A stretch of 64,000 bases of DNA from an uncultured bacterium. GTDB lineage: Bacteria > Bipolaricaulota > Bipolaricaulia > RBG-16-55-9 > DRJF01. The notes beneath the pieces are model-generated. The model was not told the origin of the DNA, searched no databases, and saw only the letters and a program-made list of their open reading frames with translations. Numbering within the stretch: position 1 is the first letter of the stretch; each line of letters starts with the position of its first letter. The DNA lies in the NCBI GenBank assembly GCA_913053845.1, contig CAJXGD010000004.1, positions 1-64,000 on the forward strand. The letters are read 5' to 3'. Shown here one piece after another: positions 3,460-24,894 of this stretch. The translations under genes and the position numbers were made by a program.

Positions 3460-4755
3460 ATGCCGGGAATCGCCGTGCTGGGCGCCCAATGGGGCGATGA
3501 GGGCAAGGGCAAGATCGTTCATCTGTTATCCAAAAACGCTGATATGGCCGTGCGCTTCAATGGGGGCACCAACGCCGGCCACACCGTGGTCTTCAACCCT
3601 GATCAGGCCGATCAGGCCGGCGAGAGCGAGTTCAGGTTCCATCTAATCCCTTCGGGTGCGCTGCACCCTAACTGCGTCGGCGTCTTGGGCAACGGTATGG
3701 TCATCGAGCCCTTCGCCCTGGCCGCCGAGCTGCGGCAGCTCTCTGAACAACTGGGCCAAGCTCCTCGGATTTGGATCAGCCAGAACGCGCACATGATTCT
3801 GCCCTATCACCCCATCGTCGAGCGCTTGGAAGGAGCAACCTCCGAGCTGGATACCACCGCCAAGGGCATCGGGCCGGCCTATCGGGATAAGACGGCCCGC
3901 CATGGCATCCGCACCTGCGAGCTGCGCTCGCCCGGGCGCTTCCAAGAGCTGCTGGCTCAGAATCTGGCGCGCGAGCGGGCGATCTTTCCCGATTCCCAGG
4001 AGCTGCAGGAGCTTGACCCGGCCAAGCTCACCGAGCAAATACTGGCCGCGACCGATGGTATGCGAGATCGGCTGACTGATACTTCGCTCTTGATCAACCG
4101 GGCACTCGATGAGGGCCGGGCGGTCGTCTTTGAAGGCGCACAGGGTTGCCTGCTGGACATCGACTTTGGCACCTATCCCTATGTGACCTCTTCCAGTGCG
4201 ACGATAGGAGGAGTCGGCGTAGGGGCCGGAGTCTCACCTCGGCGACTGGAGCGGGTGATCGGCGTGGCCAAGGCCTATGCCACCCGCGTGGGCGCGGGAC
4301 CCTTTCCGACCGAGGAGACCGAGGCGCTGGGCCGACGGTTGCGCGAGCAGGGTCATGAATATGGCACGACCACCGGCCGGCCACGGCGTTGCGGCTGGTT
4401 GGACCTAGTGGCACTGCGCTATGCGGTGCGCCTCAATGGCCTGACCGAGCTGGCGCTCACCAAGCTCGACGTGCTCAGCGGCCTGGATCAACTGCAAGTC
4501 ACCGTCGCCTATCGCCGTGAGGGCGAGCGGCTGACGGAGTTCCCCACTACGCTGGAGGAGCTCAGTGCCTGTGAGCCGAGCTATCAAAGCTTGCCCGGCT
4601 GGTCGGAGCGCTTGGAGAGTTGTCGCAGTTTTTCCGATCTGCCGCCCAGCGCTCAGCGGTATGTGCGCTTCATCGAGGAGCAGTTGGAGCTGCCGGTCGG
4701 CACCATCTCGGTCGGTCCCAGCTTCCACGATACGATTAGGATCGCGGGCGGGTGA
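3460..4755 (+). CDS. purA: Adenylosuccinate synthetase
   Basis: Condenses IMP and aspartate with GTP to adenylosuccinate, the first committed step of AMP synthesis. The protein has 431 residues, as usual for the family. The N-terminal P-loop-like motif is WGDEGKGK (residues 11-18), followed by NGGTNAGHTV. The conserved TTTGRPRRCGWLD occurs about residue 305, and the C-terminus ends GPSFHDTI. An upstream TTG at 3442 is in frame, but the ATG at 3460 is preceded by GAAAGGAG at proper spacing and gives the canonical N-terminus. Third gene of the ileS-birA-purA run. Confidence 0.96.
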   Translation: MPGIAVLGAQWGDEGKGKIVHLLSKNADMAVRFNGGTNAGHTVVFNPDQADQAGESEFRFHLIPSGALHPNCVGVLGNGMVIEPFALAAELRQLSEQLGQAPRIWISQNAHMILPYHPIVERLEGATSELDTTAKGIGPAYRDKTARHGIRTCELRSPGRFQELLAQNLARERAIFPDSQELQELDPAKLTEQILAATDGMRDRLTDTSLLINRALDEGRAVVFEGAQGCLLDIDFGTYPYVTSSSATIGGVGVGAGVSPRRLERVIGVAKAYATRVGAGPFPTEETEALGRRLREQGHEYGTTTGRPRRCGWLDLVALRYAVRLNGLTELALTKLDVLSGLDQLQVTVAYRREGERLTEFPTTLEELSACEPSYQSLPGWSERLESCRSFSDLPPSAQRYVRFIEEQLELPVGTISVGPSFHDTIRIAGG

Positions 4756-19904: not shown

Positions 19905-21029
19905 TCAGTCTTGCTCTTTTCTGCTCTGGAGCTGGGTGCGCAGCTCGCGCAACTGGGCTTGCAGATGCCAAGGCATCCGGGCATACACGTCCTCGAAGAG
20001 GCTCTCAGGCGCCGGGGGAGCGGCCGCCTCGGCGACCGCGATAGCCTGGCCGATCTCTTCGTCCAGTGCTTGGCGCAGCGTCTCATCGTCACCATCGCTC
20101 CAGAGTTCTTTAGCTTGGAGATAATGGGCAAATCGCTTGATAGGATCACGCTTTTGCCAGGTGCGTACCTCGGCCTGGCTGCGATAGCGGCTGGGGTCGT
20201 CCGAGGAGGAGTGACCGCCGACGCGATAGGTCACGGCTTCGATCAGCGTCGGTCCACCTCCGGAGCGGGCTCGCTCGGTGGCCTCTTTGGTGGCACGATA
20301 GACGGCCAGCACGTCGTTGCCGTCCACCCGCAGGCCGGGGAAGCCGTAGGCCTCGGCCTTGACGGCTATATTGGGCGCCGCCGTCTGCCGGGCCAGGGGA
20401 ACCGAGATGGCCCACTGGTTGTTCTGGCAGAGGAAGACCACCGGGGCGCGCGCGACGCCGGCGAAGTTCATCGCCACATGAAAATCCCCTTCGGAAGTGG
20501 CGCCGTCGCCCAGATAGGCCAGGGCGACCAGCGGATCGCCTTTGAGCTTGGCCGCCCAGGCGAAGCCGACCGCGTGGGGCAACTGGGTGGCGATGCAACT
20601 GGACCAACTGACGAAATGGGAGGGTTGATGTGAATAGTGACAGGGCATCTGGTGACCCTGCTGCAGGTCGAGGGAGTTGCCGATGCACTGAGCTACCAGT
20701 TGCTCCAGAGGGTAGCCGCGCAGCAGGGCGGCTCCTCCCTGACGCAAGGCGGGGAAGATCCAATCTTCCGGCCGCAAGGCGTAGGCGCTGCCGATCACGC
20801 TGGCCTCTTCGCCGGTGGAGACGCCGTAGAAACCGATGCGGCCCTGGCGCTGCAGCTTGAGCAGCCGTTCATCGAGCAGCCGGGTGAGCAGCATGGCCCG
20901 ATAGAGCCGCTGCAGCTCCTCCGGGTCCAGTTGCGGATCGAGTTGGGGGTCGGCCCGTCCCGTTTCAGCCAGCACTTGCAACAGGTCGGCGCTTTTCTTT
21001 CCTGATCGTGGTTTGGTGCTCTTGGGCAT
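19905..21029 (-). CDS. pdhA: Thiamine-dependent 2-oxoacid dehydrogenase E1 alpha subunit
   Basis: The alpha subunit of a pyruvate- or branched-chain-type dehydrogenase E1, which decarboxylates a 2-oxoacid on thiamine diphosphate and passes the acyl group to E2 lipoate. It has 374 residues from ATG 21029, which follows GGAGAG. The TPP-binding motif GDGATSEGDFHVAMNFAGV...NNQWAIS lies near residues 185-225, and the phosphorylation-loop-like GGHSSSDDPSRYR near 285. A short tandem repeat (DPQLDPQLDPEE) sits before the first helix. The E1 beta, E2 and E3 genes are not adjacent, unlike most bacterial loci; they may be encoded elsewhere. The substrate cannot be read from sequence alone. Confidence 0.9.
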   Translation of the reverse strand: MPKSTKPRSGKKSADLLQVLAETGRADPQLDPQLDPEELQRLYRAMLLTRLLDERLLKLQRQGRIGFYGVSTGEEASVIGSAYALRPEDWIFPALRQGGAALLRGYPLEQLVAQCIGNSLDLQQGHQMPCHYSHQPSHFVSWSSCIATQLPHAVGFAWAAKLKGDPLVALAYLGDGATSEGDFHVAMNFAGVARAPVVFLCQNNQWAISVPLARQTAAPNIAVKAEAYGFPGLRVDGNDVLAVYRATKEATERARSGGGPTLIEAVTYRVGGHSSSDDPSRYRSQAEVRTWQKRDPIKRFAHYLQAKELWSDGDDETLRQALDEEIGQAIAVAEAAAPPAPESLFEDVYARMPWHLQAQLRELRTQLQSRKEQD

Positions 21030-21113: not shown

Positions 21114-21142
21114 ATTGCTTCCGTCAGAAAGAGTGCGCCAGG

Positions 21143-21151
21143 TGATATAAT
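21143..21151 (+). promoter_or_regulatory. Extended -10 promoter of the structured RNA
   Basis: TGA-TATAAT is a perfect -10 with an upstream TG; no good -35 is visible. Predicted initiation near 21158-21161 coincides with the first base of the terminal helix at 21162. Confidence 0.6.
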
Positions 21152-21161
21152 ACTCTCTGAA

Positions 21162-21522
21162 GCGACTTGACAAGAGGTGAGTGGCTAGGTATAGTAGTAA
21201 AAGGCCGAAGCAAGGTTCTTTGGCCTGAAGGGTAGTAAAGAGGGCAAACGGTTAGACTTAGAGGAGGGAATATTACGATATATCCTCTCACTTCCCAAGT
21301 GAGGCTTACCTCCCACGGCTTGGCCGCGGCACCCTTCGTGCGTAGAGCACTAGAGACTCTACCAGCTGCCAGGGTTTTGCTCGCGTAGTTTGCCTCCTTA
21401 AACGCGGGATTTTTCCCCAGCGGTTCTTAAACAGCGGGGGTGCCGCGGCACAAGCCACTCTTCCCCTCAGTGCCATACTGGCAGCGCAGAGTAGCTCAGA
21501 GCTGCTCAGTTTGTCAAGTCGC
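21162..21522 (+). ncRNA. Unclassified large structured RNA, about 361 nt
   Basis: No convincing reading frame lies in the 21030-21642 gap, but nested long-range helices do. The terminal helix is GCGACTTGACAA (21162-21173) with TTGTCAAGTCGC (21511-21522). A second helix is GAGTGGCT (21179-21186) with AGCCACTC (21453-21460). A third is GCCGCGGCACCC (21323-21334) with GGGTGCCGCGGC (21438-21449). Local hairpins: 21202-21226 (9 bp), CTCACTT-CCC-AAGTGAG (21287-21303), GTAGAG/CTCTAC near 21342-21362, and GAGTAGCT/AGCTGCTC near 21490-21508. GGCAAAC (21243-21249) complements GTTTGCC (21388-21394), a possible pseudoknot. I saw no signature of RNase P, tmRNA, SRP or 6S RNA. No U-tract follows 21522. The remainder to 21642 holds a 7-bp hairpin (21567-21593) and the next ribosome-binding site. 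A MITE with terminal inverted repeats is the alternative. Confidence 0.6.
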
Positions 21523-21642
21523 TCGGCTTAGCGCTGGCGCGATAGGGGTTTGCGCGGCTCTCTCCGATGATCTATAGTCAAGCCATCATCGCTCTAGGGC
21601 ACTCTCTAGCGCTTCAGTATCTGTGATAAGGAGGATTTTCAG

Positions 21643-24600
21643 ATGGCTTCACCTGGCTACTATCGCTTTCCCACACTACATAATCAGCAGGTTGTCTTCG
21701 TCAGTGAGGATGACCTGTGGACCGTCCCGACCGGCGGCGGCCTGGCCCGCCGCTTGACCTCCGGCCTGGGCTCGGCCAGCTCGCCCACCCTCTCCCCCGA
21801 TGGCCAATGGCTGGCCTTCTCCGGTCGAGACGAGGGACCCACCGAGGTCTATCTCATGCCCGCCCAGGGCGGCCCGCCCCAACGCCTGACCTTCTTGGGC
21901 GGCAACCTGCTGGTGGTGGGCTGGAGCCCTGAAGGGCGGATTCTCTTTGCGGCCAACGCCGCAGAGCCCTTCGCCAATATCTTTCGGCTCTATGCCCTCT
22001 CGCCCCAAGCAGGCGAGTCTCCGGAGCTTTTGCCCACCGGCCCGGCGCTCAGCCTCTCTTATGGCCCCCAGGGCGGCCGGGTCATCGGTCGCAATGCGAT
22101 AGACCCAGCACGCTGGAAGCGCTATCGCGGCGGCACCACCGGCGACCTCTGGATAGATCCGCAGGGCTCAGGGGACTGGCGGCGACTGCTCAAGCTGCCG
22201 GGCAACCTCTCCCGACCGATGTGGATCGGCAAGCGCATCTTCTTCCTCTCCGATCATGAAGGCGTAGGTAATCTTTACTCTTGCCTGCCTTCCGGTCGCA
22301 GCTTAAAGCGTCATACTGACCATGACGAGTTTTACGTGAGATATCCCGCCTCCGACGGCAAGCGCATCGTCTATCATGCCGGCGCGGATCTGTATATCTA
22401 CGATCCGGCGAGCGAAAAGAGCGCTCCCATCGAGATTGAGTATCGCAGCCCCCGCACCCAGCGGCAACGCAAGTTCGTCCAGCCGGCCAAATATTTTGAG
22501 GAGTATGACCTGCATCCTCAAGGGCATCTCTTGGCCCTCACCATGCGTGGCAAGGCTTTTACGCTGGGCAACTGGGAGGGGCCGGTGGTGCAGCATGGCC
22601 AGCCGGACGGCGTGCGCTCGCGCCTGGCCCACTGGCTCAGCGACGGTAAGCGACTGGTGGTCGTCTCCGATGCCCAAGGCGAAGAGCAGTTGGAGATTCA
22701 CCAGGCCGAAGGTCCGGAAGCGCCTCAATGCCTCAAGCTCGCGCTGGACATCGGCTCTCCCACTGAGCTGCGCGTCTCGCCGCTGGCCGACCAGCTCGCG
22801 CTGGCCAATCATCGCAATGAGCTGATCCTGGTAGATCTTAAAACCAAAAAGGCGCGCTTGCTCGATAAGAGCCCCTATGCACCGATCACCGGCTTCGACT
22901 GGTCGCCGGACGGGCGCTGGTTGGCCTATAGCTGCGCTCAAAGCCGGCATACCGCGGTGATCAAGCTCTGCGATACCGAGTCTGGCCAGCTCCATACGGT
23001 CACCAAGCCGGTCCTGCAGGATATCTCGCCGGTCTTCGATCCCGAAGGCAAATATCTGTACTTCTTATCTTACCGCGAATTCGATCCGGTCTACGACAGC
23101 TTGCAGTTCGACTTGGGCTTTCCGCGCGGGGCGCGTCCCTATCTGCTCACGCTGCAAAAGGAGCTGCGCTCGCCGTTCGTGCCGGTGCCCGAGCCGCCTA
23201 ATGAGAAGGAGAAAGCTCAAGAGGGCCCAAAAACCACCTCCGAGGACCCAGAGGCCCAGCAGGAGGAGAAGCCTGCTCCGGTCGTGATAGACCTTGAGGG
23301 CATCGAAGAGCGTCTGCTGGCCTTCCCCGTCTCCGATGGGCGATACCAGCAGATCGCTGCGATCAAGGGCAAACTGCTCTACAGTGAGCTGCCGATCGAG
23401 GGCAGCCTCAAGCATAACTGGTTTCAGATGAGTGAGCCGCCGGCCAAGGCAACGCTCAAGGCCTATGATTTTGAGTCAAAAAAAGAAGAGACGCTGATCA
23501 GTGGCCTGACCAGCTTTAAGCTCTCCGGAGATCACCGGACGCTGGTCTATCGCGCCGGCAATCGCCTGCGGGTGCTCAAAGCGGGCGAGAAGCCCGATGA
23601 GAAGCTGGCCAAAGAGCCGGCCGGCCACAAGTCTGGCTGGATCGACCTGAGCCGGGTCAAGATATCGGTGGTGCCCCCGGCCGAATGGCGTCAGATGTAC
23701 CGTGAGGCCTGGCGACTGCAGCGCGATCACTTCTGGACCCCGGATATGTCGCAGGTGGACTGGCCAGCGATCTATCAGCGCTATCTACCCCTGCTGGAGC
23801 GGGTGAGCAGCCGGGCAGAGTTCTCGGACCTGCTGTGGGAGATGCAGGGCGAGCTGGGCACCTCGCACGCCTACGAGATCGGCGGGGACTATCGGCCGGA
23901 GCCCCATTACGACCTGGGCTTCTTGGGAGCAGATCTGGTCTATGATCGGAAAATTAAAGTCTGGCGGATCGTGCGCATCATTCGCGGCGATCCCTGGGAC
24001 GATGAAAAGAGCTCTCCATTGGGACGACCGGGGCTAGGGGTACAGGAAGGGGATACGCTGCTGGCCATCGGCGGACGACCTTTGGATGAAAAACTCTCGC
24101 CGGCCGAGCTGTTGGTTGATCAGGCCGGGGTGGAAATCCTGCTCACTGTGGGCGATGAGCGGGGCAAACACCCCCGCAACCTAGCAGTGAAAACGTTGAG
24201 CGGCGAGACGCCGGCGCGCTATCGCGACTGGGTAGAGCAAAATCGCCGCTATGTCCATGAGCAAACTGGAGGCCGGGTGGGCTATCTGCACATCCCCGAC
24301 ATGGGGCCGCGAGGCTACTCCGAATTCCACCGTTACTTTCTCGCTGAGATTGACCGCGAGGGGCTGATCGTTGACGTGCGCTTCAACGGCGGGGGGCACG
24401 TTTCCGAGCTTATCTTGGAGAAATTGGCCCGCCGCCGCGTTGCCTACACCCAAACGCGCTGGTTTGGCACTGAGCCCTATCCTCAGGATTCGGTGGCCGG
24501 CCCGCTGGTGGCACTCACCAACGAGTATGCCGGCTCGGACGGTGATATCTTCTCGCACAACTTCAAGCTGCTCAAGCTGGGCCCACTGTTGGGGATGCGC

Positions 24601-24894
24601 ACCTGGGGTGGGGTGATCGGCATCTGGCCCCGACAGCGGCTGGTGGACGGTGGGATCACTACGCAACCGGAGTTCTCCTTCTGGTTCAAGGACGTGGGCT
24701 GGGGCGTGGAGAATTACGGTACCGATCCCGACATCCCCGTCGAGATGCGCCCGCAGGACTACGTAGCCGGTCGGGATCCGCAACTGGAGCGCACAGTAGA
24801 GGAAGCCACCAAGCTGCTGGAGGCTCATCCACCCGCTCGGCCTGATCTGAGCGAGCGGCCCAGTCGCCGGCAGCCTCGATTGCCGGAGCGATAG
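21643..24894 (+). CDS. Tricorn protease homologue
   Basis: A 1083-residue cytosolic giant serine peptidase that trims proteasome- or Lon-type peptide products to 2-4 residues. An N-terminal six-bladed propeller (about 1-300, with LTSGLGSASSPTLSPDGQWLAFSGRD) and a second WD-like propeller (about 310-660) precede a C1 helical bundle. Then come a PDZ domain (about 755-850) and the S41-type C2 domain. The catalytic residues fall at His742 (GTSHAYE), Ser965 (EYAGSDGD) and Glu1023 (GWGVENYGTDPDI). This nearly matches Thermoplasma tricorn His746/Ser965/Glu1023, so activity is likely. A charged Glu/Pro/Lys linker near 520-545 is species-specific. ATG 21643 follows AAGGAGGA. The next gene is a peptidase on the same strand 28 bp away. 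Confidence 0.95.
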   Translation: MASPGYYRFPTLHNQQVVFVSEDDLWTVPTGGGLARRLTSGLGSASSPTLSPDGQWLAFSGRDEGPTEVYLMPAQGGPPQRLTFLGGNLLVVGWSPEGRILFAANAAEPFANIFRLYALSPQAGESPELLPTGPALSLSYGPQGGRVIGRNAIDPARWKRYRGGTTGDLWIDPQGSGDWRRLLKLPGNLSRPMWIGKRIFFLSDHEGVGNLYSCLPSGRSLKRHTDHDEFYVRYPASDGKRIVYHAGADLYIYDPASEKSAPIEIEYRSPRTQRQRKFVQPAKYFEEYDLHPQGHLLALTMRGKAFTLGNWEGPVVQHGQPDGVRSRLAHWLSDGKRLVVVSDAQGEEQLEIHQAEGPEAPQCLKLALDIGSPTELRVSPLADQLALANHRNELILVDLKTKKARLLDKSPYAPITGFDWSPDGRWLAYSCAQSRHTAVIKLCDTESGQLHTVTKPVLQDISPVFDPEGKYLYFLSYREFDPVYDSLQFDLGFPRGARPYLLTLQKELRSPFVPVPEPPNEKEKAQEGPKTTSEDPEAQQEEKPAPVVIDLEGIEERLLAFPVSDGRYQQIAAIKGKLLYSELPIEGSLKHNWFQMSEPPAKATLKAYDFESKKEETLISGLTSFKLSGDHRTLVYRAGNRLRVLKAGEKPDEKLAKEPAGHKSGWIDLSRVKISVVPPAEWRQMYREAWRLQRDHFWTPDMSQVDWPAIYQRYLPLLERVSSRAEFSDLLWEMQGELGTSHAYEIGGDYRPEPHYDLGFLGADLVYDRKIKVWRIVRIIRGDPWDDEKSSPLGRPGLGVQEGDTLLAIGGRPLDEKLSPAELLVDQAGVEILLTVGDERGKHPRNLAVKTLSGETPARYRDWVEQNRRYVHEQTGGRVGYLHIPDMGPRGYSEFHRYFLAEIDREGLIVDVRFNGGGHVSELILEKLARRRVAYTQTRWFGTEPYPQDSVAGPLVALTNEYAGSDGDIFSHNFKLLKLGPLLGMRTWGGVIGIWPRQRLVDGGITTQPEFSFWFKDVGWGVENYGTDPDIPVEMRPQDYVAGRDPQLERTVEEATKLLEAHPPARPDLSERPSRRQPRLPER

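Follow-up and report, generated by a model that had tools for sequence, protein, structure and literature searches.

The sequence CCUCC is the complement of the ribosome-binding (Shine-Dalgarno) site of bacterial mRNAs, and Hfq is the usual partner of anti-Shine-Dalgarno-type RNAs. The alpha-r14 sRNAs of alphaproteobacteria (NfeR1) are multi-copy, trans-acting RNAs that carry a conserved, unpaired anti-Shine-Dalgarno motif (PMC10746234). The merRNA of Bdellovibrio has been proposed to act as a store of c-di-GMP (PMC3627812).

Here, we describe a structured RNA family of the phylum Bipolaricaulota. The family is well supported; it is absent from current RNA databases and, at the depth searched, restricted to this phylum, and no description of the RNA was found in the open-access literature. 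The family RNA is probably a translation regulator, because its (putatively) ancestral members have a tRNA-like fold that presents CCUCC. One copy lies in the window, i.e. the whole stretch of 64,000 nt analysed here. This copy is a derived member without a T-arm, located divergently from a pdhA-like gene and carrying two CCUCC segments.

The window locus

The features of the window locus, referred to throughout the text, are as follows (all on the plus strand unless indicated otherwise).

19905-21029 (minus strand): pdhA-like E1 alpha gene, the divergent neighbour (Pfam E1_dh, 8e-96; likely start at 21029)
21123-21151: predicted promoter GTCAGA-N17-TATAAT (-35 box at 21123-21128, -10 box at 21146-21151, extended TG; predicted start around 21158)
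21158-21523: putative non-coding RNA (its 5′ end deduced from the promoter, its 3′ end placed only roughly, at about 21465-21525)
21161-21173: closing helix P0, 5′ arm, a perfect complement of 21511-21523 (minimum-energy fold)
21167-21195: second candidate promoter TTGACA-N17-TATAGT (11 of 12 matches; start around 21202)
21308-21313: 5′ anti-Shine-Dalgarno segment ACCUCC, the counterpart of (A)UCACCUCCUU 5′ of P1 in many paralogues
21317-21333: P1 5′ strand, equivalent to an acceptor stem (minimum-energy fold)
21342-21362: P2 hairpin, GUAGAG-loop-CUCUAC (fold; kept in the L003/L004 alignment)
21364-21425: P3 core module (match to covariance model R1, 52.8 bits, E 2.4e-11; covariation)
21375-21379: 5′ strand of the U-rich internal loop, UUUUG (conserved; its G/A opposition with 21409 is exchanged for A/G in several groups)
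21393-21397: anti-Shine-Dalgarno CCUCC in the P3 apical loop (conserved across groups, invariant in the tRNA-like relatives)
21409-21414: 3′ strand of the U-rich internal loop, AUUUUU (conserved)
21439-21456: 3′ strand of P1; a pyrimidine tract comes next, an arrangement that resembles a terminator in the short members
21511-21523: closing helix P0, 3′ arm, pairing with 21161-21173
21643-24894: tricorn-like protease gene downstream (Pfam), outside the RNA; this adjacency is absent in the homologue L004

The plus strand folds with considerable stability, reaching -155.8 kcal/mol over 21150-21535 compared with -133.9 ± 5.5 kcal/mol for shuffles (z -4.0; 0 of 100 shuffles as stable). The initial annotation had assigned four pairings to this region, and all four are exact to the letter. 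Its terminal helix of 12 bp is present as P0, which spans 13 bp (21161-21173/21511-21523) and forms part of the minimum-energy fold. In L004, P0 is replaced by a closing helix of other sequence, although three sequences are too few for proof. The nested 12-bp helix (21323-21334/21438-21449) belongs to the conserved stem P1. The remaining two pairings fare less well: the 8-bp helix (21179-21186/21453-21460) is near chance, with 0.84 8-mer inverted repeats expected from shuffles, is missing from the minimum-energy fold and is in competition with P1, and the proposed pseudoknot (21243-21249/21388-21394) is at chance level (3.9 expected) and not obvious in homologues. The most informative parts of the locus (the U-rich loop, both CCUCC segments and the further copies) had been overlooked.

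The extended -10 element that had been proposed at 21143-21151 is borne out, as it combines with GTCAGA (21123-21128) to give GTCAGA-N17-TATAAT. At this 17-nt spacing, the window locus is the single occurrence in its own genome, and GTCAGA-N17-TANAAT is found upstream of five further family members (L040, L054, L103, L159 and L169, with TAAAAT in L103). We had also considered the outer helix as a duplicated -35 box and the promoter as a chance match; this reading was withdrawn because the promoter sequence recurs in other family members. The second candidate promoter sits approximately where L003 and L004 have TTGCAG-N17-TATACT.

Family members and their distribution

A BLAST comparison with 100 relatives (MAGs, like the window's own Acetothermia genome) reveals long homologues beside pdhA in two genomes, L003 in G010 and L004 in G012, and a 60-nt core common to many other loci. 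The exact core pattern is found at 31 sites in 15 of the 19 genomes of the order, where the invariance of the core is partly inflated by its use as the search pattern. It has no match in the remaining 81 genomes of the phylum, and the reversed pattern, used as a control, gives 0 matches. In the genomes of approximately 85,000 species, all exact core matches (26 stretches) belong to Candidatus Bipolaricaulota/Acetothermia. Covariance model R1, whose E-values are to be taken as rough, detects 2-7 copies at unrelated loci in each of the 19 order genomes. Seven of these are in the window's own genome, on contigs C4 (the window), C1, C15, C16, C26, C80 and, weakly, C9. Beyond the order, R1 gives one convincing match (G033).

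The initial annotation had suggested either a new RNA class or a very divergent housekeeping RNA. A new class is supported by the lack of an Rfam match, by strong covariation among homologues and by the restriction of the core pattern to Bipolaricaulota. The window and the element in relatives have no match to Rfam families, including riboswitches, above the curated threshold, nor any relevant match at permissive thresholds. The element is none of the tmRNA, RNase P RNA or SRP RNA, because each is encoded elsewhere in the same genome (C3:4125-4498, 175 bits; C3:4581-4945, 232 bits; and C66:4872-4971, 67 bits, respectively). A cmscan of the window gives no match to 6S RNA. Bacterial Y RNA (YrlA) was rejected as a candidate: the Ro60/TROVE domain (PF05731) is found in 0 of the 19 order genomes, with a positive Deinobacterium control. 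As a side observation, a gap of 82 nt separates the tmRNA and RNase P RNA genes on G000:C3, which share a strand.

Several dispersed copies per genome, with GAGCUUGGC/GCCAAGCUC arms common to paralogues, would also be expected of a MITE or another mobile repeat with terminal inverted repeats, an alternative already raised by the initial annotation. This origin is most improbable: near-identical dispersed copies are lacking, as the window's own genome holds one copy at the DNA level, and its further copies are old paralogues with covarying structures, scattered over unrelated loci, that have diverged with compensatory changes and have their own promoters. Furthermore, two genera share the same neighbour, Beta_elim_lyase (L176 and L184), and a DNA-level search of plasmids, phages and viral contigs returned nothing relevant.

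Architecture of the conserved module

The conserved module consists of the P3 arm, with its GGG/CCC block, its U-rich internal loop and, in most cases, CCUCC within the apical loop, placed on the closing stem P1; the neighbouring hairpin is a tRNA T-arm in many members. On the plus strand, P3 runs from a covarying stem through CA, GGG and UUUUG into a second covarying stem that carries the loop, and returns through AUUUUU, CCC and CA to the first stem. Pairing is kept in 92.6% of the cells of P3 over 33 distinct sequences. Double-change cells number 78, compared with 26.5 in shuffles, counts that are not independent as the sequences are related. The covariation score is 0.475, versus 0.142 for shuffles and around 0.08 or less for slid structures. 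In L040/L054, L153/L161 and the L003/L004 group, the G that faces an A at the top of the U-rich loop is replaced by an A facing a G, which would fit a non-canonical pair.

P1 encloses P3, and its GCUUGG/CAAGC sequences are common to several paralogue groups. In four short members (L090, L091, L099 and L165; the L090 type measures about 97 nt), P1′ runs into a U tract and a promoter-like site is located upstream of P1, which it abuts in L090 and L091; P1 therefore resembles a terminator stem ending a short transcript. In other members, P1 additionally encloses the tRNA T-arm (CGGUUCGAAUCCG) or a hairpin that stands in for it.

We assign the RNA to the plus strand because of its bias for G-U over A-C, the polarity of its T-loop and its promoters. 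Counts of G-U versus A-C are 25 and 3 for the lower stem, and 28 and 10 once the sequences are collapsed to groups, and the T-loop UUCRANUC has the correct polarity on this strand. Upstream promoter-like scores are 6.66 on the plus and 5.82 on the minus strand (5.75 and 5.56 in shuffles), and the 20 nt following P1 contain on average 14.4 pyrimidines on the plus strand versus 8.7 on the minus strand. One paralogue group (L012, L035, L059 and L061), which lies beside Beta_elim_lyase genes and has no clear plus-strand promoter, has strong TTGACA-18-TATAAT-like promoters on the opposite strand in its downstream flank, pointing to a possible antisense transcript.

A tRNA-like form of the family

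In a form that we designated as type A, the P3 arm is carried by a full tRNA-like domain, arranged as an AGUCC acceptor strand, a D-like hairpin, an anticodon-like stem, a T-arm and GGGC, followed by GAGGGAAACC. Type A elements (L197, L202, L203, L207, L211-L217 and others) are approximately 150 nt in length, likely as a piece of a longer transcript, and are usually single-copy. They have no Rfam match. Covariance model R2 finds matches with E 0.001 or better in 50 of the 100 phylum genomes, covering families f6-f9 and the order, a count in which some of the weaker matches are small forms or borderline. For the tRNA-like domain, double changes number 136 (versus 47) and the covariation score is 0.395 (versus 0.143), although these pair counts lean towards the model to which the alignments were fitted.

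The full length of R2 also matches T-arm-bearing small members (e.g. G000:C26, E 1e-7), which connects these members with type A. The type A relatives have acceptor, D and T arms and the T-loop consensus; the window copy has lost the T-arm. ARAGORN calls one copy from family f7 a tRNA, with anticodon CCTC, and calls no tRNA among the order members. Judged by its wider spread, type A appears to be the ancestral form of the family.

Conservation of CCUCC and of the U-rich loop

In type A, the apical loop of the anticodon-like arm contains CCUCC in 29 of 29 sequences. Among these, the G033 homologue keeps CCUCC on a stem that is wholly replaced. Among 21 groups (type A included), 18 have CCUCC either in the loop of P3 or no more than 130 nt upstream of the core, compared with 6.4 expected (P 6e-9, dinucleotide shuffles); the exact motif is missing in a few members (L168/L169 of G013 and L099 of G008). 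The conserved CCUCC is located in unpaired regions, as in the alpha-r14 sRNAs, a resemblance that concerns function and not homology. Within the window, Shine-Dalgarno (GGAGG-type) sites are found for 19 of the 45 long ORFs, versus 8 in the control.

The second conserved feature of P3, its U-rich loop, resembles an ENE. Alignments A1 and A3 show opposed U-rich strands between G-C flanking stems. The two U tracts are flanked by the invariant GGG/CCC block and a CC/GG stem, in line with the definition of ENEs (PMC8704770), and several groups have A/G in place of the G/A pair that closes the loop. An ENE-like role is nevertheless improbable: no A tract was found in the RNA by eye (a partner in trans is possible), and the loop is missing in families f6 and f7, the members of which keep CCUCC. 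As the U-rich loop has no A-rich partner that we could find and is less widely kept than CCUCC, we regard it as a secondary feature, possibly one that binds a protein or makes a tertiary contact.

Gene context and c-di-GMP riboswitches

The neighbours of the element differ for almost every group and provide no functional hint; they include IMP dehydrogenase, MeaB, LexA, KsgA, Beta_elim_lyase, histidine kinase/response regulator, MutS2 and AsnRS genes. The element is not a leader, because the next gene is convergent in several loci. Read on the minus strand, the window copy could be taken for a leader that regulates pdhA and contains AAGGAGG segments and a loop rich in A (AAAAAU/CAAAA). The pdhA gene does adjoin the element in the window, G010 and G012, and the minus strand folds too. 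However, paralogues adjoin unrelated genes in various orientations, and the strand evidence given above (G-U/A-C bias, T-loop polarity and promoters) favours the plus strand. Inspection reveals no consistent start codon after the minus-strand AAGGAGG, and a promoter scan places a promoter-like site of pdhA's own at 21113-21085, making a pdhA leader very unlikely.

At two loci (G000:C15 and G005:C10), the element is preceded on its own strand by a c-di-GMP-I riboswitch, and this in turn by a promoter, in what looks like one transcription unit. In G000:C15, the riboswitch (L173, 3951-4042, plus strand) diverges from a gene for a GGDEF/PAS/HD protein and precedes the element core (4238-4277, plus strand), and the next gene, MeaB, is convergent. 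In G005:C10, the riboswitch (L104) spans 1582-1664 on the minus strand, and a terminator-like hairpin follows the element. Both riboswitches apparently have no ORF of their own, and the succession of promoter, riboswitch and element suggests riboswitch-controlled non-coding RNAs. Three further riboswitches, of the c-di-GMP-I-GGC type, are found approximately 1 kb or less from an element (L160, 2404-2488, plus strand; L178, 5579-5663, plus strand; L053, 571-655, minus strand). These apparently do not form one unit with it, and the L053 riboswitch precedes an apparent protein-coding gene.

Proposed mode of action

Based on these sequence comparisons, we consider it somewhat more probable than all other readings taken together that the family RNA acts in trans, with CCUCC pairing with the Shine-Dalgarno sequences of mRNAs and blocking initiation from a tRNA-related scaffold. 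Trans action is favoured because the element has diverse neighbours and is often followed by a convergent gene. In the window copy, the exposed CCUCC of the P3 loop (21393-21397) and of the 5′ segment (21308-21313) would pair with GGAGG of mRNAs, and this pairing would prevent translation initiation. As CCUCC comprises only five bases, specificity must come from elsewhere; the bases flanking CCUCC may set the targets of each paralogue. The tRNA-like or P1/P3 scaffold would stabilize and present CCUCC, perhaps together with a protein that binds the U-rich loop; the variable 5′ region would act as the input domain, a role potentially taken by the c-di-GMP riboswitch in two cases. Counting against this reading, Hfq-like proteins give weak matches (28 bits) in just 2 of the 19 genomes (G000:C51:731-877 and G018:C61:953-1105), a few members are without the exact CCUCC, and the L012 group has its strong promoter-like site on the opposite strand.

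The strongest rival holds that the RNA is a housekeeping, tRNA-shaped mimic of the 3′ tail of 16S rRNA that, instead of pairing with selected mRNAs, binds the ribosome or a factor recognizing tRNA or the CCUCC tail (in assembly, hibernation or rescue), with the small paralogues as specialized copies. The ancestral form being tRNA-like, usually single-copy and spread phylum-wide would suit such a role, as would the invariance of CCUCC on a variable stem and the ARAGORN call with anticodon CCTC. Still, the several paralogues per genome with differing 5′ regions and the two riboswitch fusions look regulatory, and the T-arm is lost in the window copy, so that we regard this mimic as rather unlikely.

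Returning to Shine-Dalgarno pairing in trans, a broader version of this proposal is conceivable and is put forward tentatively: a phylum-wide, tRNA-shaped global translation regulator, the anticodon-like arm of which reads Shine-Dalgarno sequences, and which in one order has multiplied into regulatory copies, some of which are c-di-GMP-switched and carry the ENE-like U-rich module. If true, this would be a new structured RNA family broadly spread in a deep-branching phylum, in which a tRNA-like scaffold is reused for Shine-Dalgarno reading, tying together tRNA mimicry, translation control and second-messenger sensing. The proposal makes tRNA-like RNAs testable as global initiation regulators, and alignments A1 and A3-A5, together with models R1 and R2, form a basis for annotating the family.

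Comparison with known systems

The family shares an acceptor-like stem, a D-like hairpin with GG and a UUCRANUC T-arm directly 5′ of the 3′ acceptor strand with tRNAs and the tRNA-like domain of tmRNA. Unlike these, it has no CCA end, and its anticodon-like stem branches into a hairpin and the long CCUCC arm; the tmRNA gene of the genome sits elsewhere. As in the ENEs of PAN and MALAT1 (PMC8704770), a U-rich internal loop faces a U-rich strand, with G-C-rich stems on either side. Known ENEs are eukaryotic or viral, whereas this family is bacterial, with 4 U facing 5 U and a G/A closing pair.

Like merRNA (PMC3627812), the two riboswitch-bearing members appear to be non-coding RNAs with a c-di-GMP riboswitch that controls no downstream ORF. 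In contrast to merRNA, the riboswitch here is coupled with an independent RNA module, and this at two loci only. The alpha-r14 sRNAs (PMC10746234) belong to another phylum, and homology is neither seen nor expected; they consist of three simple hairpins with CCUCCUCCC, lacking a tRNA-like fold and a U-rich internal loop. What both have in common is that they are multi-copy and conserve an unpaired anti-Shine-Dalgarno motif while their stem sequences vary freely, with pairing to mRNAs being predicted for the family described here.
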